Source: Spirochaetales bacterium (lineage in GTDB: Bacteria; Spirochaetota; Spirochaetia; SZUA-6; DRHE01). Taken from it: 64,000 bases of DNA. Under the pieces are notes generated by a model. That model saw nothing but the letters and a program-made list of their open reading frames with translations. It did no database searches and was not told where the DNA came from. Positions 27,167 to 39,716 of this stretch are shown here, piece by piece. The position numbers and the translations under genes are program-made. The stretch is taken from the NCBI GenBank assembly GCA_030604195.1, contig JAUVWI010000006.1, forward strand, positions 1 to 64,000, in the 5' to 3' direction. Positions within the stretch are counted from its first letter, which is position 1. Every line of letters starts with the position of its first letter.

Positions 27167-27232
27167 GCGCTGATATTAATAATTGCAGTAAAAGATGTCA
27201 ATTATTATTATTTGCGGTAAAAAATGTCAATT

Positions 27233-27256
27233 GAGCCGGCTCATGTGAGCCGGCTC
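27233..27256 (-). terminator. Stem-loop at the 3' end of feoB
   Basis: GAGCCGGCTCA-TG-TGAGCCGGCTC; minus strand continues into AATTGACATTTTTT. Confidence 0.65.
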
Positions 27257-27275
27257 GTTAACTGGAAACTTTAGA

Positions 27276-29603
27276 TTACTCTGTAAGCTTATATCTTACC
27301 TTTCTCCCTATTACTGCGAATAAGGCATAAATCGCAGCAATCATGATAATCGGAATGAGAATCCATATGAATTGATGTCCTACCGTTATCTGAAAAAATA
27401 GAGTGGCCACGATCCAGGCCAGTACGGTTAGGTAGGCCATGGAAAGCCAACCGTAACCCTTTCCGATCTCCCTGACTATCGCACCTAATGCGGCAATACA
27501 TGGAAAATAGATAAGGATAAACAGCAGGTAGGCATAGGCCTGGGCTCCGCCGTAGGTAAAACGTGAACGCATGGCAGAAAATATCTGATCATCAGTTTCA
27601 ATCTCTTCAGCAACAGCTTCTTCATCTCCGCTTATCATACTCATGCCCATCGGGTCCGACAGAGTGCCGAAGATGCCGGAGAGTCCTTCCGGAATGGAAG
27701 CAAAGGCCTCACCTATACCCACCCAGAACTCAAAGGCCTCCTCCCCTTCGGCTTCTCCTTCTTCCGCAGCTCTATCTATCTGGCTGTACAGACTATTCAG
27801 AGTACCGACAACCGCCTCTTTGGCGAATAAACCGGTAAAAATCGATACTGTTGCCGGCCAGTTGTCCTGCTCAATGCCCATGGGCATGAATACGGGGGTA
27901 ATGGCTCTGCCGACACCGGCAAGAACAGAATTAGGAGAATCTTCATTGCCAAAAGTGCCGTCTGTGCCAAGGGAGTTGAGAAAGCTTAAAATGGCAACTA
28001 CAAACACGATTACAATACCGGCCCGCCGCATAAAAATCTTCAAACGGTTCCAGGTATGGATCATGATATGTCTGAACCGCGGGGCATGGTATGGGGGAAG
28101 TTCCATAATAAAAGGTGATGCTTCTCCCTTAAGAAGGGTGCTCTTCATTAGAAGACCGGTCAGCACGGCCAGTACAATCCCGGCTATATAAATTGAAAAA
28201 ACAATGCTTCCTGCAGCATTCGGGAAAAACGCGGCGGCAAACAGGGCATAGACCGGCAGCCGGGCGCCGCAGGACATGAAAGGCGTCATGAATACAGTTA
28301 AATAGCGGTCTTTTTTATTTTCCAGTGTGCGGGTTGCCATAACCGCCGGAATGGTGCAGCCGAAACCCACGATCATGGGTATAAAGGATTTCCCGGGAAG
28401 TCCGATCCAGCGCATAAAACGGTCCATAACAAAAGCAGCCCTGGACATGTAGCCGGAATCTTCCAATAGCGAGAGCATGAGGAACATGGTGAAAATAATC
28501 GGGATAAAGGTGGCCACGGTTTGAATTCCTGCTCCTATTCCTCCGGCAACAATGGTAACGAGCCACTGCGGAGCGCCGGCGCTGCTAAGTAAAACACCTA
28601 ATCCGTCAACAAAAATAGTGCCGAAAAAGATATCGAAAAAGTCTATAAAGGCCCCTCCTACATTAATGGTCACCCAGAATACAAGGTACATAACGGCCAA
28701 AAAAATTGGTATGCCCAATATCCTGTTCATTATTACCTTATCCGCCTTATCAGTTGCGAATATCCGGTCTTTACGCAGCTTGACCACCTTATTAATAATT
28801 CCGTGGATAAAGCCATATTTGTAATCGGCCAACACTATATCAGCGGATTCCTTTAATGTTTTTTCTATTCCAGCCAGGGCCTGCTGAATTTCCAGAGCCT
28901 TTAGCGCGCCTGCCTGCTGCACCTTATCAGTTATCCATTCATCCTGCTCCAGGACTTTTATAGCCATCCACCGTTCATCCGCGCCAATCCGGTTTGCCGG
29001 ATTGGCAAGGCTCGGAGCCCACTTTTCAATTACATCTTCCAGCTCATTCGGATACTCTATCAGATTCTCTGAGATTGTCCCTGCTTCCAGGTTAGCAAGT
29101 ATCGCTTCATTAACACGATCGATATCCTTGGTGTTGATAGCGCTTATTCCTACTGCAGGGTAGCCCAGGACCCTGGACAGCATTTCCACATCAATGCTTA
29201 TATCCCTTTTCTCAGCTAAGTCCATCATGTTCAGCACCACCAGAACCGGTACCTTCATCTCTATCAAATGTGTGGTCAGGTAAAGGTTCCGTTCCAGATT
29301 GGTAGCATCTATAATGTTGATTACCAGGTCCGGCTCACCGCTTAAAAGATAATCCCTGGTTATCTTTTCATCCTCAGAGAAAGCGGTAAGAGCATAAATC
29401 CCGGGAAGATCGACAAAATTTACAGAATTATCTCCCAACCGGACAGTTCCCTCTTTTTTCTCTACTGTGACACCCGGCCAGTTGCCTATGCGCTGTTTTC
29501 CACCGGTAAGCCCGTTAAACAGGGTTGTCTTGCCGCAATTCGGGTTACCGACCACAGCAATGGTAACCGGTTTAACGGAAACAGTAACATTTTCACTTTT
29601 CAT
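27276..29603 (-). CDS. feoB: Ferrous iron transport protein B
   Basis: GNPNCGKTTLFNGLTGGKQRIGNWPGVTVEKKEG; multi-TM Gate domains; start at MKSENV, overlapping feoA. Confidence 0.96.
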   Translation of the reverse strand: MKSENVTVSVKPVTIAVVGNPNCGKTTLFNGLTGGKQRIGNWPGVTVEKKEGTVRLGDNSVNFVDLPGIYALTAFSEDEKITRDYLLSGEPDLVINIIDATNLERNLYLTTHLIEMKVPVLVVLNMMDLAEKRDISIDVEMLSRVLGYPAVGISAINTKDIDRVNEAILANLEAGTISENLIEYPNELEDVIEKWAPSLANPANRIGADERWMAIKVLEQDEWITDKVQQAGALKALEIQQALAGIEKTLKESADIVLADYKYGFIHGIINKVVKLRKDRIFATDKADKVIMNRILGIPIFLAVMYLVFWVTINVGGAFIDFFDIFFGTIFVDGLGVLLSSAGAPQWLVTIVAGGIGAGIQTVATFIPIIFTMFLMLSLLEDSGYMSRAAFVMDRFMRWIGLPGKSFIPMIVGFGCTIPAVMATRTLENKKDRYLTVFMTPFMSCGARLPVYALFAAAFFPNAAGSIVFSIYIAGIVLAVLTGLLMKSTLLKGEASPFIMELPPYHAPRFRHIMIHTWNRLKIFMRRAGIVIVFVVAILSFLNSLGTDGTFGNEDSPNSVLAGVGRAITPVFMPMGIEQDNWPATVSIFTGLFAKEAVVGTLNSLYSQIDRAAEEGEAEGEEAFEFWVGIGEAFASIPEGLSGIFGTLSDPMGMSMISGDEEAVAEEIETDDQIFSAMRSRFTYGGAQAYAYLLFILIYFPCIAALGAIVREIGKGYGWLSMAYLTVLAWIVATLFFQITVGHQFIWILIPIIMIAAIYALFAVIGRKVRYKLTE

Positions 29604-29844
29604 CCTTCCCCTCCTTCTTGACTTGTAACACATCGGCTTCAGCTTTACGCAATGAAAGATTGAAACCCCTCACTTCCACCTCCACCGGATCACCAAACGG
29701 AGCCAGTTTCAATAGTTTTAATTCCGTGCCCCTGGTTAAACCCATGGCGAGCAGCTTGCTGCGGTATGCCGGATCTCTAGAATCGTAGCCCACAATTTCA
29801 GCGCTCTCGCCTACCTTAAGGTCCTTGATTTTAATTGATGACAT
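29593..29844 (-). CDS. feoA: FeoA family protein
   Basis: SH3-like FeoA pattern (LLAMGLTRGTELKLLKLAPFGDPVEVEVRGFNLSLRKAEAD). Confidence 0.9.
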   Translation of the reverse strand: MSSIKIKDLKVGESAEIVGYDSRDPAYRSKLLAMGLTRGTELKLLKLAPFGDPVEVEVRGFNLSLRKAEADVLQVKKEGKDEK

Positions 29845-29892
29845 GATTGCCTCCTTTATAATTAAATTTTAGACCCTTCGTATTATATTAGA

Positions 29893-29920
29893 TTAGTATA
29901 ACTAAATTAGATATACCTAA
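29893..29920. promoter_or_regulatory. Tandem candidate DtxR-family metalloregulator boxes upstream of feoA
   Basis: TTAGTATAACTAA (29893-29905) and TTAGATATACCTAA (29907-29920), near-palindromic. Confidence 0.6.
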
Positions 29921-29937
29921 TTTTTAGTATAAAAAAA

Positions 29938-30195
29938 TTACCCGACCATAATCCTATGGGCCATTCCCCTTCCCAGCATGATCCGTGTATCAAAAATACC
30001 CACAACCATGGGCCCACCATTCGGATTGTTTATTACTTCAATTTCCATACCCGGAACCAGCCCCATGTCTACCAGCTTCCTTCTAAATCCATGGCCACCA
30101 TGGATTGCCTTTATACGTACTCTTCTACCCCGTTCAGCCATTATCAAAGGCATCAGATTACTCCCTGATTTTGAGTTGTTCATTTTGTTAACCAA
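29938..30195 (-). CDS. Second FeoA family protein
   Basis: FRRKLVDMGLVPGMEIEVINNPNGGPMVVGIFDTRIMLGRGMAHRIMV. Confidence 0.9.
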   Translation of the reverse strand: MVNKMNNSKSGSNLMPLIMAERGRRVRIKAIHGGHGFRRKLVDMGLVPGMEIEVINNPNGGPMVVGIFDTRIMLGRGMAHRIMVG

Positions 30196-30206
30196 CCCTA
30201 ATATTA

Positions 30207-30220
30207 TATGGTATAACTAA
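30207..30220. promoter_or_regulatory. Candidate DtxR-family box upstream of the second feoA
   Basis: TATGGTATAACTAA shares GTATAACTAA with the boxes at 29893-29920. Confidence 0.45.
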
Positions 30221-30288
30221 TTCTGTCAATACTTTTTAAGAAATAAAATAACGACTACTAACACTGGTATGACGGCCATGTGATATAT

Positions 30289-30747
30289 TCAGCTCGCTGT
30301 TCCTTCAATATGCTCTTTCCATGCTTTATGACTTATTTTTCCTGATTCCATCATACCCCTTTCGAATAAGTCGATCAGCCTTGTCATTCTTTTTACCGTA
30401 TCACAATCTATTGCATGCTCCATTTTACAGGCCATATCCTGAGCCCTTCCATTTGGAATAAGCAGAATGGTCTCTAAAAAACGTGTCAGGGTTTGATGCT
30501 TGTTTAATATCTTTTTAGAGATTTTAAGGCCCTCTTTAGTCAGGCTTATAAAGGAATTTTTTTCATAGTTTATTAAACTTTTTTCTCTTAATACCTTTAA
30601 CGCTCCGGTTACAGACGGCATTTTTACTTGTAGAGTTTGAGCAATATCTTTTACCCGGGCGACCCTGTTAGCCTTTTCCAGGTTCATAATTGCTTCCAGG
30701 TAATCTTCCATGTTTGAGGTTAATTTACTTTCGTTTTTAGTTTTCAT
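30289..30747 (-). CDS. DtxR/MntR family metal-dependent transcriptional regulator
   Basis: MEDYLEAIMNLEKANRVARVKDIAQTLQVKMPSVTGALKVLREKSLINYEKNSFISLTKEG. Confidence 0.92.
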   Translation of the reverse strand: MKTKNESKLTSNMEDYLEAIMNLEKANRVARVKDIAQTLQVKMPSVTGALKVLREKSLINYEKNSFISLTKEGLKISKKILNKHQTLTRFLETILLIPNGRAQDMACKMEHAIDCDTVKRMTRLIDLFERGMMESGKISHKAWKEHIEGTAS

Positions 30748-30868
30748 AATATCAGTTTAACTACTTAATACAAAGAAAACAACTAACTTTATAAGAAATC
30801 CCTAATTCATTCAGGCTTTGTACTTTTTACACAATCATGAAGGCTCTATTGCTAATATTAGTATAGAT

Positions 30869-32092
30869 TCATTTTCTTCTGCCCCAAAGCTCTTTTTTAA
30901 TATCGGAAATTGTCAGCCCCTTTTTCGCCATCAGAACCATTACAAAATAGGTTAAATCCGCAACCTCCCAGATCAGGTTGGCTTCATCAGTGCTGGTCAC
31001 AACCTCTTCCGCCTCTTCTAAAATCTTGTCCATAATATTTTTATCTTCTGCAGCGATCCTCGAAGTGTACGATTTTTCTGAAGGGTTATAGATTCTTTCT
31101 TTTATTACTTCATAAAGCTGCTCAAGGCTGAATTCCTGGTCACCGAAACAGGAGTATCTGTCCAGATGGCAGGCGTTGTTATTTTGCCGCACATGGAATA
31201 GCAGGGAGTCTCTGTCGCAATCATAGCGGGCTTTCAGCAGTTGCTGGTTATTTCCCGATGTCTCGCCCTTGGTCCAGAGTTTATTCCTGCTCCTGCTGAA
31301 ATAGGTTGCCTCTCCGGTGTTCAGTGCCTTTGCAAGTGATTCCTTTGAGGAATAGGCAAGCATCAGAACCTGGCCCATTTCATCCTGAACTACGGTAGGT
31401 ATCAGACCTGTGCTCCTTTCGAAATCGAGAACCCCGGTAAATGCCCCGGTAAGATCAATCTTTCCGGTATACACAGCCATTCCGACCTGGGAGTTCACAT
31501 CCATCCCCTCGAGCACCGCGATCTCGTCGACTGTTGTAATCCCACCTGCGAATGTAATTTTGAGGCCGGTGTTTTCCCTGAGCGCTTTAAGGGTCTCTAA
31601 TCTGCACCCCTGCATAAGACCCTCTCTGTCGATATCCGTATAGAGAATTTCACTGCAGTAGGGCTCAATTTCCTTGAGCTTCTGAAGAGGGGTTTGACCT
31701 GTGGAGCTGGTCCAGCCTCTATCCACTACAAAATCGCCCCTGCTGTCCAGAGCTGCTATCAGCCTTGATTTCGGAAGCTGTTTCATAAAAGCAGGTTGAG
31801 CTCTGGTTCCGATAATAATTTTTCCGGCTCCCGCTTTGAGCAGTTGTTCAGCCTTTTCCACGGTGCGAATCCCGCCTCCGACCCGGCAGTCAAAACATCT
31901 GCACAATTTTTTAATAATTTCCAGGTTGTCGCCCTTTCCAAGCGCTGAATCAAGATCGATCACGGCAATTTCTCCGTAACGGGCAAATTTCTCTGCCAGT
32001 TCAAAAATATTTTCTTTTTCAAGGACCTTTTCCGTGCCCCCTCTTAATTGAACGGCTTTTGCTTCCATAATATCTATGCTTGGTATTATCAT
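30869..32092 (-). CDS. Trifunctional histidine biosynthesis protein: HisA isomerase - HisI cyclohydrolase - HisE pyrophosphatase fusion
   Basis: HisA barrel ([15 protein letters not shown]...[11 protein letters not shown]), HisI ([18 protein letters not shown]...GETSGN...[11 protein letters not shown]...CHLDRYSCF), HisE ([10 protein letters not shown]...[19 protein letters not shown]) in one 407-aa frame. Confidence 0.93.
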
Positions 32093-32853
32093 ATTCTAAC
32101 CTCGATATGTTTGGATAATAAAAAATCTTTCACTTCCTCGACAGTATATTTACCGTAATGGAAAATGGACGCCGCAAGAGCTCCATCGGCTCTACCGTGG
32201 ATGAAAACCCGGGCAAGGCTTTCAGGCGAACAGGCTCCTCCTGAGGCAATCACAGGGATATTTACCAGTCCTGAGATTGCAGCCGTCAATTCGATATCGT
32301 AACCGGCTTTTGTACCATCCCGGTCCATCGATGTGATAAGTATTTCCCCGGCTCCAAGTTTTTCAACTTTCCCGGCCCATTCAAGTGCATCGATACCTGT
32401 GGGTTCCCTGCCCCCTTTGATGTATACTTCCCAGCTATTCTCTTTTTTCTTTGCATCGATTGCTGCGACAATGCACTGGGTTCCAAATTGCTCTGCTGCT
32501 TCAAAAATAACTTCCGGTTTTTTTACCGCGGTTGTGTTAAGAGTAACCTTATCGGCTCCTGCTTTCAGCAGATCACGTATATCCCGGATGTTACGAATTC
32601 CACCTCCCACCGTAAAGGGAATAAAAACTTGTTCTGCAACCCGGCGAACGATTTCGAGCATAATTCCTCGTTTTTCCACCGAAGCGGTAATGTCCAGAAA
32701 AACAAGCTCGTCAGCACCCTGGGCATTGTATTTACGGGCAAGTTCTACCGGATCGCCGGCATCTCTTAAGTCGGTAAAGTTCGTGCCTTTTACGACTCTT
32801 CCCTCTTTTACATCGAGGCAGGGAATGATCCGTTTAGCTAACATGCAAGCCAC
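32089..32853 (-). CDS. hisF: Imidazole glycerol phosphate synthase subunit HisF
   Basis: [53 protein letters not shown]. Confidence 0.97.
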
Positions 32854-33419
32854 CTCCTTAAAAACTCAAGTCCAAAAGGCCCGCTCTTTTCAGGGTGGTA
32901 CTGCACGGCTGTTATCTTTTCCCGGCGGACTCCACTCACGAACAGGCCGTTGTAATCGGTCCGGGCTGCTACGATTTCATAGTCTTTGGGGTTGACGAAA
33001 TAGGAATTAACAAAATAGGCGTATCCTTCTTCAAAAAGCCCCTTCTGCACGGGTATAACTTTGTTCCAGCCTGTATGCGGCACTTTTCCCTGTTTATACC
33101 TGGTTACAGTACCCTTAAATATTCCCAATCCTTGCACACCCGGGCTCTCCTCGCTATTATCGAACAGAGCCTGCAATCCAAGGCATATACCCAGGAGAGG
33201 AATGCCTTTTTCCACGGCAATCCTGACTGCAGCATCGAGCTCACTGTTCTTCATATTCATCATCATTGCCCCGAACGAGCCGACACCTGGGAAGATTATC
33301 CTCTCTGCATTAATGATAACATCCGGTTTATCCGAAATCTCAGCCTGTACTCCAAGATAGTGCAGAGCGTTTTTTACGCTCATAAGGTTCCCCGCTCCAT
33401 AGTCTAATATTACAGTCAT
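32838..33419 (-). CDS. hisH: Imidazole glycerol phosphate synthase subunit HisH
   Basis: [47 protein letters not shown]. Confidence 0.97.
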
Positions 33420-34007
33420 TTACAGCGCTCCTTTTGTGGAGGGTATTTTGCCGGTTGCCCTGGGATCAAGAGAGCAGGCCATTTTCATGGCTCTGGCAAA
33501 TGCCTTGAACACCGCCTCTATCTTGTGATGGTCGCTCCGGCCTTCGATGATTTTTACCACGATGTTTGCATTGAGATTGACTGCAAATGCCTGAAAAAAG
33601 TCCTCGATCAGGTCGGTTTCAAGCTGCCCGCAGAACCGACTTCTGAATTCAGCATCGAATTGGAGGTATGGCCTGCCGCCGATGTCAACGGCAACAAGCG
33701 CGAGCGCCTCATCCATTGGTAAAATAAAATATCCGGCTCGGTTTATTCCCTTCAGGTCACCAAGAGCCTTTTTGAAGGCCTGGCCGAGGACAATACCGCA
33801 GTCCTCTATTGTGTGGTGCTGATCAACCTGCATGTCTCCTGCAGCGGAGACAGTGAGGTCGAATAGACCATGTTTTGAAAAAGTTTCAAGCATGTGGGAA
33901 AAAAAGGCAACAGGAGTATCAATTCTGTATTCTCCGGTCCCGTCTATATTTATACTTGCTGATATCCGGGTTTCCTCTGTCTCTCTATTAACTTCCGCAG
34001 TTCTCAT
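33420..34007 (-). CDS. hisB: Imidazoleglycerol-phosphate dehydratase
   Basis: FFSHMLETFSKHGLFDL; DQHHTIEDCGIVLGQAF; GRSDHHKIEAVFKAFARAMK. Confidence 0.97.
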   Translation of the reverse strand: MRTAEVNRETEETRISASINIDGTGEYRIDTPVAFFSHMLETFSKHGLFDLTVSAAGDMQVDQHHTIEDCGIVLGQAFKKALGDLKGINRAGYFILPMDEALALVAVDIGGRPYLQFDAEFRSRFCGQLETDLIEDFFQAFAVNLNANIVVKIIEGRSDHHKIEAVFKAFARAMKMACSLDPRATGKIPSTKGAL

Positions 34008-34699
34008 ACCAGTACTCCTTCTATTTCATTGATATTATTAAGAATAGTCTTCGCTCCATTACTCCTCAAAATTGCAGGCAGCTTGTCTGATTTACTATCA
34101 GGAGGAAGCACGCCGATTACCTGAATGCCTGCACGGCGTGCTGCTTTCATATCGTCTATACTATCGCCAAAATAAATTGCCTTCCTTTTACCAAGGCGCT
34201 CAAGCGCAAGGTTGATGCCGTAAGGATCGGGTTTCCCCCGGCCTTCAGGGCAGTCTTCCATTGTGATGACAACATCGAAATATTGGGCGGCGCTATTCTT
34301 ACCGAGCACATATTCAGCTTCTGCACGGGGTCTGCCGGTAACCATTCCCAGTATGTTGTCCCGGTAAATCCGTTTGAGTGTATTTATGGACATAATCCAG
34401 TTTTCATTGTGGATAAAACCTTTCGTTCTATCCGTACCGCGGTAAAGATTGTTAAATTTCGCTGTGATTTTTCCTTTTTCGATATTCATACCATATTGAA
34501 TGATCAGAGCTTCACTGAGATCCCAGTCGTTGTTGTAACCGCCTTTTTCTTTGATGGTCTGGATTTCATCGGCGGTAACATGCGCATTTGTGAAATGTTT
34601 CACCGTCTCAATGACAGCCTTGTGGTAGGATGCCGAGACATCGACCAGCACGCCGTCCATGTCAAAGAGCAGAACACGTTTATGAAGTATGTTTTTCAT
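34004..34699 (-). CDS. HAD family hydrolase, subfamily IA; candidate histidinol-phosphate phosphatase
   Basis: LFDMDGVLVDVSASYHKAV; VTGRPRAEAEY; GKPDPYGINLAL; YFGDSIDDMKAARRAG; embedded in the his operon. Confidence 0.88.
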   Translation of the reverse strand: MKNILHKRVLLFDMDGVLVDVSASYHKAVIETVKHFTNAHVTADEIQTIKEKGGYNNDWDLSEALIIQYGMNIEKGKITAKFNNLYRGTDRTKGFIHNENWIMSINTLKRIYRDNILGMVTGRPRAEAEYVLGKNSAAQYFDVVITMEDCPEGRGKPDPYGINLALERLGKRKAIYFGDSIDDMKAARRAGIQVIGVLPPDSKSDKLPAILRSNGAKTILNNINEIEGVLV

Positions 34700-35560
34700 T
34701 TATGGGACGACATTATTAATATTGTATACGAGGATGTCGGTTGCGCCGTTTTCCTTGAGAAATGGTATCAGGCTTGCGACTTTTTCCTTCTCAACAGCTA
34801 TCTTCACTGCGTAACCCTGTTCTCCGTAGAGCTCGGCCACGGTTGGTGATTTCATACAGGGCAGGAGCGGAATCAGTCTATCGAGATCTTCTCCGGCAAC
34901 ATTCATCTCAATGAGAAAGCGTTTTCGGCCCTCTATGGCGCTACGAATCAGGGTAATGATGTCTTTGATCTTCCTGGATTTCCACGGGTGCTTCAGAGAT
35001 TCTTTATTAGCAATCATGCAGGTGGATGAAGTCATCAGTTCATCAATAATCTTGAGGTTGTTTGCCCGCAGAGTCTTGCCGGTCGAAGTGTTGTCGATGA
35101 TCATATCGGCATCTTCCGGAACGAAGACTTCAGTTGCGCCGTAGGACTTTATGAGAACGAAGTCTATGTTCAGAGCCTCGAGATACCTGCGGGAAATATT
35201 CTCGTATTCTGAGGCAACGCGGACTGTTTGGAGTTTGAGCTGATCAAAAACCAGTTCATCGGGAATAGCAGCTACTACCCTCACCCTGTTAAAGCCGAGG
35301 TCCATTATTTCTTCTACATCGGCGTCCTGCTCAATGACCCAATCCCTGCCGCAAAAGGCGATATCCTGGGATCCGAGCTCTACGAGCCGTGGTATGTTCT
35401 GGGTTTTTAGAATTTTTACTTCGATTTCCGGATCGCAGATCAACGGCCGGTAGTTGCGTTCATTCTTAGTGAGATTAAGTCCGGCATCTGCAAGTAATTT
35501 TTCCACTTCATTATAAAGTCTGCCTTTTGGCAGTGCAATTTCTATTTTTTCTATCATCAT
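34700..35560 (-). CDS. hisG: ATP phosphoribosyltransferase, long form with C-terminal regulatory domain
   Basis: IALPKGRLYNEVEKLLADAG; ELGSQDIAFCGRDWV; ACT-like C-terminus; start placed at ATGATGATAGAAAAA behind AAAGGAGAAA, not at the track start 35596. Confidence 0.95.
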   Translation of the reverse strand: MMIEKIEIALPKGRLYNEVEKLLADAGLNLTKNERNYRPLICDPEIEVKILKTQNIPRLVELGSQDIAFCGRDWVIEQDADVEEIMDLGFNRVRVVAAIPDELVFDQLKLQTVRVASEYENISRRYLEALNIDFVLIKSYGATEVFVPEDADMIIDNTSTGKTLRANNLKIIDELMTSSTCMIANKESLKHPWKSRKIKDIITLIRSAIEGRKRFLIEMNVAGEDLDRLIPLLPCMKSPTVAELYGEQGYAVKIAVEKEKVASLIPFLKENGATDILVYNINNVVP

Positions 35561-35578
35561 TTTCTCCTTTAAGGACAT

Positions 35579-35695
35579 GCCATACACTGTAAGCAAGGCT
35601 AAAGTGCAGGAAGTAGGGAGCTTTTACGTATGGCGGCTACAATAAAAACTAAGAGTTATCGGATATGGCCATCACGCATTAGCAGCTTTAATGGC
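35579..35695 (-). promoter_or_regulatory. Candidate his attenuator: four mutually complementary segments between leader peptide and hisG
   Basis: On minus strand: GCCAT (35691-35695), CGTGATGGC (35668-35676), GCCATACG (35627-35634), GTATGGC (35579-35585), giving alternative 1:2, 2:3, 3:4 pairings. Confidence 0.6.
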
Positions 35696-35801
35696 TAAGT
35701 GAATGATAATGATGATGGTGGCGGGGATGATTCGGATAGGTGGTATTAAAAAATCGGGATTCTATAACATCTAATATGAGGATGATTTGTAAAAGTTTCA
35801 T
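35688..35801 (-). CDS. hisL: Histidine-rich his operon leader peptide (37 aa)
   Basis: ATG behind AAGGAG; translates MKLLQIILILDVIESRFFNTTYPNHPRHHHHYHSLSH*, 7 His clustered at the end; not in ORF track. Confidence 0.88.
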   Translation of the reverse strand: MKLLQIILILDVIESRFFNTTYPNHPRHHHHYHSLSH

Positions 35802-35847
35802 ATTTTCTCCTTTCTATTACTGAGATTGTAAAATTACCCTCGACAGC

Positions 35848-35877
35848 AGAATAAGAAAAATCCGGTTCATTAGTCAA
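35848..35877 (-). promoter_or_regulatory. Candidate sigma70-type promoter for the his operon
   Basis: Minus strand TTGACT (35877-35872), 18-nt spacer, TATTCT (35853-35848). Confidence 0.5.
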
Positions 35878-35975
35878 GCGCTTTTTAAGATGTCTTCCGG
35901 AATATAACCGGGAAGTTCCTTTTTACCTGACTGAAGAAATCGATCGCTTTTCCCCTATAAACCCCTATTAGAATT

Positions 35976-38900
35976 TCAGAGGTCTGTTAGATAAGCAGTA
36001 TAAGCCCGGCGTACTCTTTCCAGACAATTCTTTAGTTCAGCCAGGAAAACTTCTATTTCCACCCCGGCACCCATTATCCTTCTGGCCAGAGCGCGCAGCT
36101 CGAAGGGATCAATGGGTAAGGTATGAAGCTGACGATCCTCGAATAACTGGATAGAATGCTCTACCCGCCTTAAAAAAAGATAATCCCGGCTTAATTGAGC
36201 AGCTGTCGCTGCCGGCAGATAGCCCGCTTCCATTAAAATATTCAAAGCATTCAGAGTATTCCCCTCAAGCAGCTTCCTATCCTTTTTGCGTGAAGCGCAG
36301 ATAAGCTGCAGACCCTGCACCAGAAACTCAATATCCCTGATTCCGCCGGCGCCGAGTTTGACATTTAAAGAGTTCGAGAGCCTGTCACCAAGGTTGTTAA
36401 TGGTTCGCGAACGCATGGTATCTATAGCCTCAATAATCTGCCGCCTTTCCCTACTCTCCAGCAGCAGGGAGCGGGCTTTGTCAATTACCTCATAACCCAG
36501 CTCCAGGTTGCCGGCCACCGGTCTGATCTTTAGCAGCGCCTGTCTTTCCCATAGAGAGGCGCTATGACGATAATAATTCAGCAGGGCTTTATCGGATTGA
36601 ACCAGCTCCCCGGAGCTTCCATACGGCCGCAGGCGAAGATCGACCCGGTAGGCGTAACCCTCCTCAGTATGAATGGAGAGCTCACGCTTAAGCTTTTCCA
36701 TAATCCTGCCGCAGAGCTCGGCGGAGCCGGCGGAAACAGGATCGCCATAGATACCCAACAGATCCACATCTGAACTATAATTCAATTCTGAACCGCCGAG
36801 TTTTCCCAGGGCCAGAATACAAAAATTCAATGGAACACCCTTTGTTCCTTGCCGGCGCTTTATTCCGGCCAGTGTTGCCCGGATTACCGCCTCGGCCAGC
36901 CTGGAAAGCTCCAGGATTATTTCCTGTACGGGAGCGCCCAGGCATATATCCCTGGCAGCGATCCTCAAGATCTCTCTTCTGCGCAACCGGCGCATATTAT
37001 TAAGCCAGTCACTTTCGAAGGTGCAGAGTTCCCGCTCTATATCCTCTTCTCTGCGCACATTCTGTAGATTACCCGGCACAGCCAGCCATGATAGGAATTC
37101 CGGATTGCCGATTAAAGTATCTGCCAGGAATTGACTGCCCGCGAGTATGTTCAGCAGTATTTCCAGTCCCTTCGGCTGGGAGAGCAGCATCTGGTAATGG
37201 TTATCAGCCTGGTCTAATGAAACAACAAAACGCTCCCAGTTATTCAGTGCCATATCAGGATCAGGCAGAGCTTTTAGAATATCCCCGGCCAATACGGCAA
37301 GTTTCACAAAATGTTCCCGCTGTCTTCCCCTGCCGGCCAGTTTTTTTAGATTTACTACAGCTCTCTCCATTCCCTCCAAACCCAGGCTTTTGAGAATCTT
37401 ATGCTGTAGCGGCGGAGGGAGATGTTCAGAGAGAATCAGATCAACAATATTGCCCGAGGCCGGCCCGGGCACTGATTCCCTGCCTAAGTGTTTCTCAACA
37501 AAGGTTCTGATAAACGCAGTGTGGGTTTCAAAATCCAGGTGGAGCTGTTGACCGGGGGAAAGATCCCGGCTCAACTTATAACCCATTCGCCGGGCCAGAT
37601 GAGCGTATTCCTGAGATTCAAGCAGCGGCAGGAAGAGATCCTCAGCTGAACCACGCAGCATACGCAGACTGTTGATCAGATTATGTAGAAAGGTATAAGA
37701 GCCGGCCATTCTTTTTGCTTCGATAGCTGCCAGAACACCTGCACGGCGTAATCTTTTTAGAGCCGGTAGAAGATAAGGAGTTCTCACCTCCGGATTGGTG
37801 TCGCCATAGGTAACCTGGAGGATCTGCACCGTATACTCCAAATCAACCAGCGCGCCCGGGCTGAATTTGGCATTCAATCTTCCCTTAAGGGTTTTATCTT
37901 TAAGCTGCCGGCGGCGCAGAGTGCGTAACTCGGAAAGATCGATACCCCGGGCTGTATATAAAAGCTCATCACGCAATCTTTCTATTCTACGGCCGAGATC
38001 TTTATTCCCTCCGATTGCCCGCAGACGCACTAAAGCCAGTCGCTCAAGAGAATGAGCATCACCACCGGCTCCATAATAGCGGCAGAAGCTTTCCAGGCTG
38101 CAGGCCAGGGGGCCGGAATTTCCGTAGGGTCTTAAGCGTAGATCAAGCTTAAATATTCCCTCCCTCCTGGCCTGGATGTATTCTTTTACTTTACGAACCA
38201 GATGTTCATAGAACTCTGCATTACTTATTACCTGCGGGCCGCTGGTAAATCCTGCATCTCCATAGATCAGCAGCAGCTCGATATCTGAAGCATAACCAAG
38301 ATCACAGCCGCCGAACTTACCCAGGGCCAAAACCGCGCAGCCGGTTTCCAGCCCGGCAATAGTTTGAGGTGTACCGTAATTCTTTTCAATGTGGTTATAG
38401 ACCAGAGCAAAAGCTCTATTGATAATCTCTTCAGCAAGTGAACTCAGGCGTAAAGCCAGCTTCCGGAAATCCATGTCCGGAGTGAGAATATGGTCCATAT
38501 CCAGGAGGAATATCTCCTGGTCCTTAAATTCATTAAGGCATTGGATCTCTTCCTCCCTGGTTTCTGCTCCTTCCAGGGCCCTGGTCAACCTCTTTTTCAG
38601 GTCCCGGGTTGAAGGAGTAAAGGATCGTCCATGGAGATGAGGCTCGAGCATGGGCAGCAGGCTTTCATACTGCAGCCGAATAAAATCCTCCCACAGGAAA
38701 TCACTCGCCCCCAGCAGACGGGCCAGATCCTGCATAATCAGGGGATTGGACAGAAGCTCCAGCCACTTTCCCTGCTCCGGAAGTTTAAGAATATCATCCA
38801 CCATCTTTTCAAAACGGCATAGTGCCGTGTAAGGGTCAGGCGCTCTCCCCAGAAAATAGGTAAACTGTTTGGTCAACAGCACGGAGAGCTTAACCTGATT

Positions 38901-39716
38901 CAGCAGCGCCTGGTCATCTATTTTTTTACCCTGGCCATTCAGAATATCAAATACGTCCTCCACTCTGCCTGCAACTGTGCGAATACTCACCCTTTCAATA
39001 ATGATGCCATTAAGCGTTAGGGCAGTGCTTAAGGCATAGAGGAAAAATGTGGTGTCCTCGGTCACCACCCTGATCCTGGTACAATCAGTGCAGCTTTCAT
39101 CCTCCTCAATATGGAGGGGCTGCAATGCTGAACCCGGTTCAAAATCAAGGGCTTCGAGGCTGGCTGCTACCAACTCATTCACCTGTTCCTTGGCCAGTTC
39201 TGCAGTATCGCTCTTTCCCTGTTCCAGCAAACGAGTTGTAAGTTGAAGCTGGCTGCGCAGCTTTTTTTCCCATTCCGTCAGGCTGAGAGATGAGTTCAGA
39301 TAGCCTGAGAAGCGATCGACAATCCTCCGCCGCTTTAAAGTGCTGATAGCTTTATGGTGCTGACGCCCCCTTCTCCTGCTTCCGGAAACCTCCGGCCCGG
39401 CGCGCTCGTAGGTAAAAATATCGCCTTTAATGATATTAAATCCCAGGGCCCCGAGCGTTCCGGTAAGCAGTGAGAATTCAGCGCTGTAATCAAATGCTGT
39501 AATAGTACATTCCACTTCTTCCCCCTGCCCGCGCTTAAGGTTAAGCTCTACAGGATTTTCAGGAGAAAGACCGGCCAGAGATATTAAATGGCTGCATATT
39601 TCTTTTAGGGAAAAAGCATTATGATAACGCTCGCCCAGACGGTGGAGATGTTCCGTTATTAAAAGCTCATCTACCTCGGGGCATAATTTTTTAAGCTTTT
39701 CCAGAGATGGTTTCAT
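35976..39716 (-). CDS. glnE: Glutamine synthetase adenylyltransferase-like protein (GlnE) with two N-terminal ACT-like domains
   Basis: Two nucleotidyltransferase motifs (LALGKFGGCDLGYASDIELLLIYGD; LALGKLGGSELNYSSDVDLLGIYGD); N-terminal VECTITAFDYSAEFSLLTGTLGALGFNIIKGDIFTY and IRVVTEDTTFFLYALSTALTLNGIIIERVSIRTVAGRVEDVFDI. Confidence 0.88.
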   Translation of the reverse strand: MKPSLEKLKKLCPEVDELLITEHLHRLGERYHNAFSLKEICSHLISLAGLSPENPVELNLKRGQGEEVECTITAFDYSAEFSLLTGTLGALGFNIIKGDIFTYERAGPEVSGSRRRGRQHHKAISTLKRRRIVDRFSGYLNSSLSLTEWEKKLRSQLQLTTRLLEQGKSDTAELAKEQVNELVAASLEALDFEPGSALQPLHIEEDESCTDCTRIRVVTEDTTFFLYALSTALTLNGIIIERVSIRTVAGRVEDVFDILNGQGKKIDDQALLNQVKLSVLLTKQFTYFLGRAPDPYTALCRFEKMVDDILKLPEQGKWLELLSNPLIMQDLARLLGASDFLWEDFIRLQYESLLPMLEPHLHGRSFTPSTRDLKKRLTRALEGAETREEEIQCLNEFKDQEIFLLDMDHILTPDMDFRKLALRLSSLAEEIINRAFALVYNHIEKNYGTPQTIAGLETGCAVLALGKFGGCDLGYASDIELLLIYGDAGFTSGPQVISNAEFYEHLVRKVKEYIQARREGIFKLDLRLRPYGNSGPLACSLESFCRYYGAGGDAHSLERLALVRLRAIGGNKDLGRRIERLRDELLYTARGIDLSELRTLRRRQLKDKTLKGRLNAKFSPGALVDLEYTVQILQVTYGDTNPEVRTPYLLPALKRLRRAGVLAAIEAKRMAGSYTFLHNLINSLRMLRGSAEDLFLPLLESQEYAHLARRMGYKLSRDLSPGQQLHLDFETHTAFIRTFVEKHLGRESVPGPASGNIVDLILSEHLPPPLQHKILKSLGLEGMERAVVNLKKLAGRGRQREHFVKLAVLAGDILKALPDPDMALNNWERFVVSLDQADNHYQMLLSQPKGLEILLNILAGSQFLADTLIGNPEFLSWLAVPGNLQNVRREEDIERELCTFESDWLNNMRRLRRREILRIAARDICLGAPVQEIILELSRLAEAVIRATLAGIKRRQGTKGVPLNFCILALGKLGGSELNYSSDVDLLGIYGDPVSAGSAELCGRIMEKLKRELSIHTEEGYAYRVDLRLRPYGSSGELVQSDKALLNYYRHSASLWERQALLKIRPVAGNLELGYEVIDKARSLLLESRERRQIIEAIDTMRSRTINNLGDRLSNSLNVKLGAGGIRDIEFLVQGLQLICASRKKDRKLLEGNTLNALNILMEAGYLPAATAAQLSRDYLFLRRVEHSIQLFEDRQLHTLPIDPFELRALARRIMGAGVEIEVFLAELKNCLERVRRAYTAYLTDL

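Follow-up and report, generated by a model that had tools for sequence, protein, structure and literature searches.

A 37-codon open reading frame (ORF 35801-35688, minus strand) upstream of the his operon of a Spirochaetales bacterium is very probably a genuine predicted His-sensing leader. The ORF was found in a 64,000-nt stretch of contig JAUVWI010000006.1 (assembly GCA_030604195.1), referred to here as the window. The window leader represents a terminator-less variant with, most likely, a translational output.

A Predicted His Leader Peptide Upstream of hisG

A re-reading of the sequence recovered the ORF, its coordinates, its peptide and its AAGGAG site as a preliminary description of this DNA had claimed them. 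The leader and its upstream signals are organized as follows.

35848..35877, minus strand: candidate sigma-70 promoter TTGACT-N18-TATTCT (weak, 1 found versus 1.8 expected)
35807..35812, minus strand: leader ribosome-binding site (RBS) AAGGAG, 5 nt from the ATG (from the sequence)
35688..35801, minus strand: His leader ORF, 37 codons, MKLLQIILILDVIESRFFNTTYPNHPRHHHHYHSLSH (from the sequence, with analogues across the class)
35703..35720, minus strand: His-codon run CAC CAT CAT CAT TAT CAT, candidate sensor (from the sequence and a genome-wide run count)

Seven His codons are located among the final 13 codons of the leader. Judged from the sequence, the arrangement expected of a hisL-type attenuator is present: the his operon is preceded by a short ORF that contains tandem His codons and has its own RBS. 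The distance of 127 nt between the leader stop codon and hisG given in the preliminary description is right for the first hisG ATG (35560), but a distance of 130 nt is equally likely because the second ATG (35557) has the better Shine–Dalgarno spacing. The proposed promoter is present but does not exceed the background of 1.8 sites expected in shuffled sequences.

The pattern CAYCAYCAYCAY has 25 occurrences in the 3.83-Mb genome, both strands counted (15 for a reversed-pattern control), and this scarcity makes the His run of the leader unlikely by chance. The probability that such a run falls within 250 nt upstream of hisG and in the correct orientation is roughly 1 in 1000, with frame and RBS not yet counted in. 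It is very improbable that the His-rich ORF is a functionless chance ORF: the peptide has only its His run in common with relatives, the promoter does not rise above background and one relative (G003) has no leader, but His runs are scarce in the genome, an RBS is present and eight families of the class contain analogous leaders. The strongest support for the His run of the leader is phylogenetic and comes from the class-wide survey described below. No second His leader was seen at hisD, which is located on contig C45, separate from the his operon, and is without a CAY-run match.

Organization and Origin of the his Operon

The genes downstream of the leader were identified by NCBIfam models and follow the order hisG-HAD-hisB-hisH-hisF-hisA/IE.

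35564..35569, minus strand: hisG Shine–Dalgarno sequence AAGGAG (from the sequence)
34700..35557, minus strand: hisG, long form with C-terminal regulatory domain (TIGR00070 and TIGR03455)
34004..34699, minus strand: HAD-family phosphatase, candidate histidinol-phosphatase (TIGR01548; equivalent position in related his operons)
33420..34007, minus strand: hisB (NCBIfam)
32838..33419, minus strand: hisH (NCBIfam)
32089..32853, minus strand: hisF (NCBIfam)
30869..32092, minus strand: hisA-hisIE fusion (NCBIfam)

The leader ORF is preceded by glnE (35976-39716). The encoded GlnE protein (1246 aa) displays a weak GlnD-like similarity across its first ~280 residues, which suggests an extra N-terminal regulatory region.

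The preliminary description had placed the DNA in a lineage resembling the spirochaetes, and this placement is borne out. FlaA (PF04620), a flagellar sheath protein of spirochaetes, is encoded in the source genome and in 25 out of 30 relatives and is absent from all 14 control genomes. Furthermore, glnE shares 90% identity with its counterpart in G001, the one genome of the same genus that was compared, and a contaminant contig was rejected on this basis.

In G001, glnE directly adjoins an aminotransferase gene, the counterpart of which is located at 25.7-27.2 kb in the window (93% DNA identity). Since the two genes are adjacent in G001, the window contains ~8.8 kb of additional sequence between them (27204-35988), holding the leader, the his operon, an MntR-like regulator and feoB. 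G001 carries hisZ and a short-form hisG at another site. The HisG protein of the window is nearest to proteins of archaeal, KSB1, Halobacteroidaceae and Kangiella genomes, and the operons of these HisG relatives show a similar gene order, usually with ~1.9 kb between the hisG start and the HAD gene. The simplest reading, inferred from these comparisons, is a horizontal gain of the his operon. Alternatively, the operon may have been lost or replaced in G001, as this genome is only 73% complete.

Among the relatives that share the HisG type of the window (L253-L281, families f30 and f42), 10 out of 29 carry a recognisable His leader; gain and loss of the leader seem to be frequent in this group. 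Five Kangiella hisG genes (L038, L044, L045, L048 and L052) have two His leader peptides upstream (about -410 to -80), and in the four loci that were fully read (all except L052) each leader is followed by its own intrinsic terminator, giving two his attenuators in series. His-rich leader ORFs were also observed upstream of hisG in Melainabacteria, Obscuribacterales and Vampirovibrionales (L084-L087, L060 and L061), followed by a terminator-like hairpin in those that were read (L084-L086, L060 and L061).

His Leaders Within the Spirochaetia

A total of 174 hisG upstream regions within the class Spirochaetia were surveyed. A short ORF with at least four His codons within six residues was identified in 32 out of 174 regions, compared with none on the antisense strand, none in shuffled sequences and 0-2 for other residues. 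With a threshold of at least three His within six residues the number increased to 42 regions (antisense 7, shuffles 1-5), at least one of which (G018) is probably spurious when inspected by eye. The leader-positive genomes span eight families, including the family of the window.

A hairpin followed by a T-run was found by program between the leader and hisG in 39 of these 42 regions, by a loose criterion that the spurious G018 passes too. Two of the remaining three regions (G182 and G441) show a hairpin by eye, leaving the window as the only one with none. Because nearly all leaders are followed, immediately ahead of hisG, by an intrinsic terminator, his attenuation of the classical, terminator-based kind is very likely widespread in the Spirochaetia. 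When 14 leaders were aligned, pairing of the His run with an element immediately past the leader stop codon was possible in 90% of cells. Covariation in this alignment was no higher than in shuffles, the computed fold being partly dominated by misalignment, and no relevant Rfam family, His_leader included (E up to 1), gave a match in eight spirochaete leader loci.

The suggestion in the preliminary description that his-leader control extends to a spirochaete therefore reaches well past this locus, and the better evidence comes from the relatives. The same description had named absence of the ORF or its His run from relatives with the same hisG context as evidence against a leader. The outcome of this check is mixed: G003 (same family, HisG 54% identical) has no leader and G001 has no operon at this site, yet eight families, that of the window among them, have leaders. 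His attenuation has been described in the Proteobacteria and several Firmicutes (PMC9413887, PMC2965389), and no description of his leader control in spirochaetes was found in the open-access literature that was searched, subscription journals lying mostly outside it.

The Window Leader Lacks an Intrinsic Terminator

The output step of the enteric his attenuator is an intrinsic terminator. The analogy drawn in the preliminary description is not borne out in this respect: a pattern scan, a search for hairpins followed by a T-run and folding of the sequence before each T-tract revealed no intrinsic terminator between the window leader and hisG. The only T5 tract in this interval has no hairpin ahead of it. 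The one minus-strand match (35533-35520) was rejected, as it is located inside hisG and has no U-tract. The locus was assigned to a terminator-less variant because the enteric terminator mechanism does not pass a defining test here.

Three segments that resemble parts of an attenuator are present downstream of the His run.

35669..35675, minus strand: element 2, GUGAUGG, can pair with the His codons CCAUCAU (-7.8 kcal/mol)
35628..35634, minus strand: element 3, GCCAUAC, can pair with element 4 (-9.3 kcal/mol) and, in part, with element 2
35579..35585, minus strand: element 4, GUAUGGC, followed by the hisG RBS without a U-tract

The window, a single genome, holds complementary segments that may allow mutually exclusive 1:2, 2:3 and 3:4 pairings, and element 2 resembles GCCAUGAUGGG, which is located after the leader stop in relatives. 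Beyond the His runs and this element-2-like motif, no homology of the leader sequence to relatives was detected. The 5' region as a whole is not unusually stable (z -0.28). The Rfam His_leader family (RF00514) had no match in the window at the gathering score or at a relaxed threshold, and the window had no match to other Rfam elements. A T-box riboswitch was considered and rejected, as the covariance model matched neither the window nor the region 35500-35980 at E up to 5.

The persistence of elements 2, 3 and 4 as complementary segments without a U-tract is compatible with a relic, a classical attenuator that lost its terminator and left hisG constitutive or controlled by its promoter. The terminators of leader-bearing relatives and the insertion of the operon relative to G001 point in the same direction. 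We regard a relic as rather improbable, however, since the start codon, RBS, His run and stop codon are all intact, which is unexpected in a relic, and a donor with the ancestral terminator was not found.

Predicted Pairing of the His Run With the hisG Start

The His run contains a segment that is perfectly complementary to the hisG start region over 9 nt.

35708..35716, minus strand: AUCAUCAUU, within the His run, complementary to the hisG start (-8.1 kcal/mol)
35553..35561, minus strand: AAUGAUGAU, hisG start region with tandem AUG, proposed target of the His run (complementarity)

Among 31 leaders compared, the 9-nt match is found in the window only; the other 30 reach 3-6 nt. According to ViennaRNA, the unpaired probability of the tandem AUGs is 0.01 in the free RNA, 0.77-0.79 with the ribosomal A site at His28-His30 and 0.10 with the ribosome at the leader stop codon. 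This predicted swing was equalled by 7 out of 100 synonymous leader recodings, 11 out of 60 spacer shuffles and 1 out of 23 start regions of the window, among which hisG itself probably figures. By their nature, CAU codons can pair with AUG.

In the mechanism proposed here, the leader would act as an upstream ORF (35801-35688) that controls a his operon which the nearest relative lacks at this site. As long as charged tRNA-His is in plentiful supply, the ribosome would clear the His run, AUCAUCAUU would pair with the hisG start AAUGAUGAU and initiation would be blocked. With charged tRNA-His in short supply, the ribosome would stall on the His run and cover it, and the hisG start would be free. 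Such a translational his attenuator may well explain the leader, although on the modelled folding we hold this reading tentatively, with belief and doubt close to balance. We infer leader translation, stalling and a translational output, the output step from one genome and against nulls of 4-18%. The translational model is the best supported of several but falls short of established, because part of the null sequences matched the swing, CAU complements AUG naturally and no relative close enough to follow conservation of the pairing was found. The unremarkable stability of the 5' region as a whole and the lack of a leader in G003 also count against it. It is possible, with distinctly more reserve, that the His-codon run itself serves as the strand over the hisG start codon in place of a terminator, combining sensor and switch in one RNA stretch where the relatives are terminator-based.

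The main rival to the translational model is a Rho-dependent attenuation, in which the C-rich, G-poor leader RNA would provide a rut site; ribosome stalling at the His codons would mask this site or keep the polymerase coupled, leading to transcription of hisG. A rut-like region is present, with leader stretches of C 0.31 and G 0.08 over 78 nt, Rho is encoded in the genome (TIGR00767, 715 bits) and an intrinsic terminator is absent; Rho has also been proposed for terminator-less leader peptides of Mycobacterium cys operons (PMC1262725). However, CAY His codons are inherently C-rich and G-poor, making the C-rich region partly a by-product of the His codons, and the 9-nt complementarity to the hisG start is left unaccounted for. 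Overall, Rho-dependent attenuation is considered unlikely, if a serious contender.

Together, the data indicate that histidine synthesis in the Spirochaetia regularly involves amino-acid sensing by leader-peptide stalling. The terminator-based relatives and the one terminator-less copy form a natural comparison, in which simple mutations could test how the output step of an attenuator changes.

Comparison With Known Systems

The window leader and enteric hisL are both short ORFs placed directly ahead of hisG, each with a run of His codons and with downstream segments complementary to that run. The window leader differs in having no intrinsic terminator, no Rfam match and a longer peptide (37 codons) with the run near the C-terminus. 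The his attenuators of the Bacillus cereus group, Eubacteriales and Erysipelotrichales contain 3-5 consecutive His codons (PMC9413887; PMC2965389 for hisZ/hisS) and likewise place a His-codon leader peptide upstream of his genes in a nonproteobacterial group. Theirs have terminator and antiterminator hairpins, whereas the window has none.

In the proposed window mechanism, a ribosome stalled on the leader ORF would free the start of the next gene, as it does in erm-type translational attenuators (PMC8274638) and in leader-peptide attenuators that sequester the RBS (mentioned in PMC9413887). In the window, in contrast to both, the run of sensing codons would itself do the sequestering, and the system would respond to uncharged tRNA-His where the erm signal is a drug. 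The Mycobacterium cys leaders (PMC1262725) similarly combine sensing codons in a leader peptide with the lack of an intrinsic terminator, and Rho has been suggested there, but they differ in amino acid, lineage and gene. The other spirochaete leaders of the survey fit the type of the Bacillus cereus group, Eubacteriales and Erysipelotrichales.
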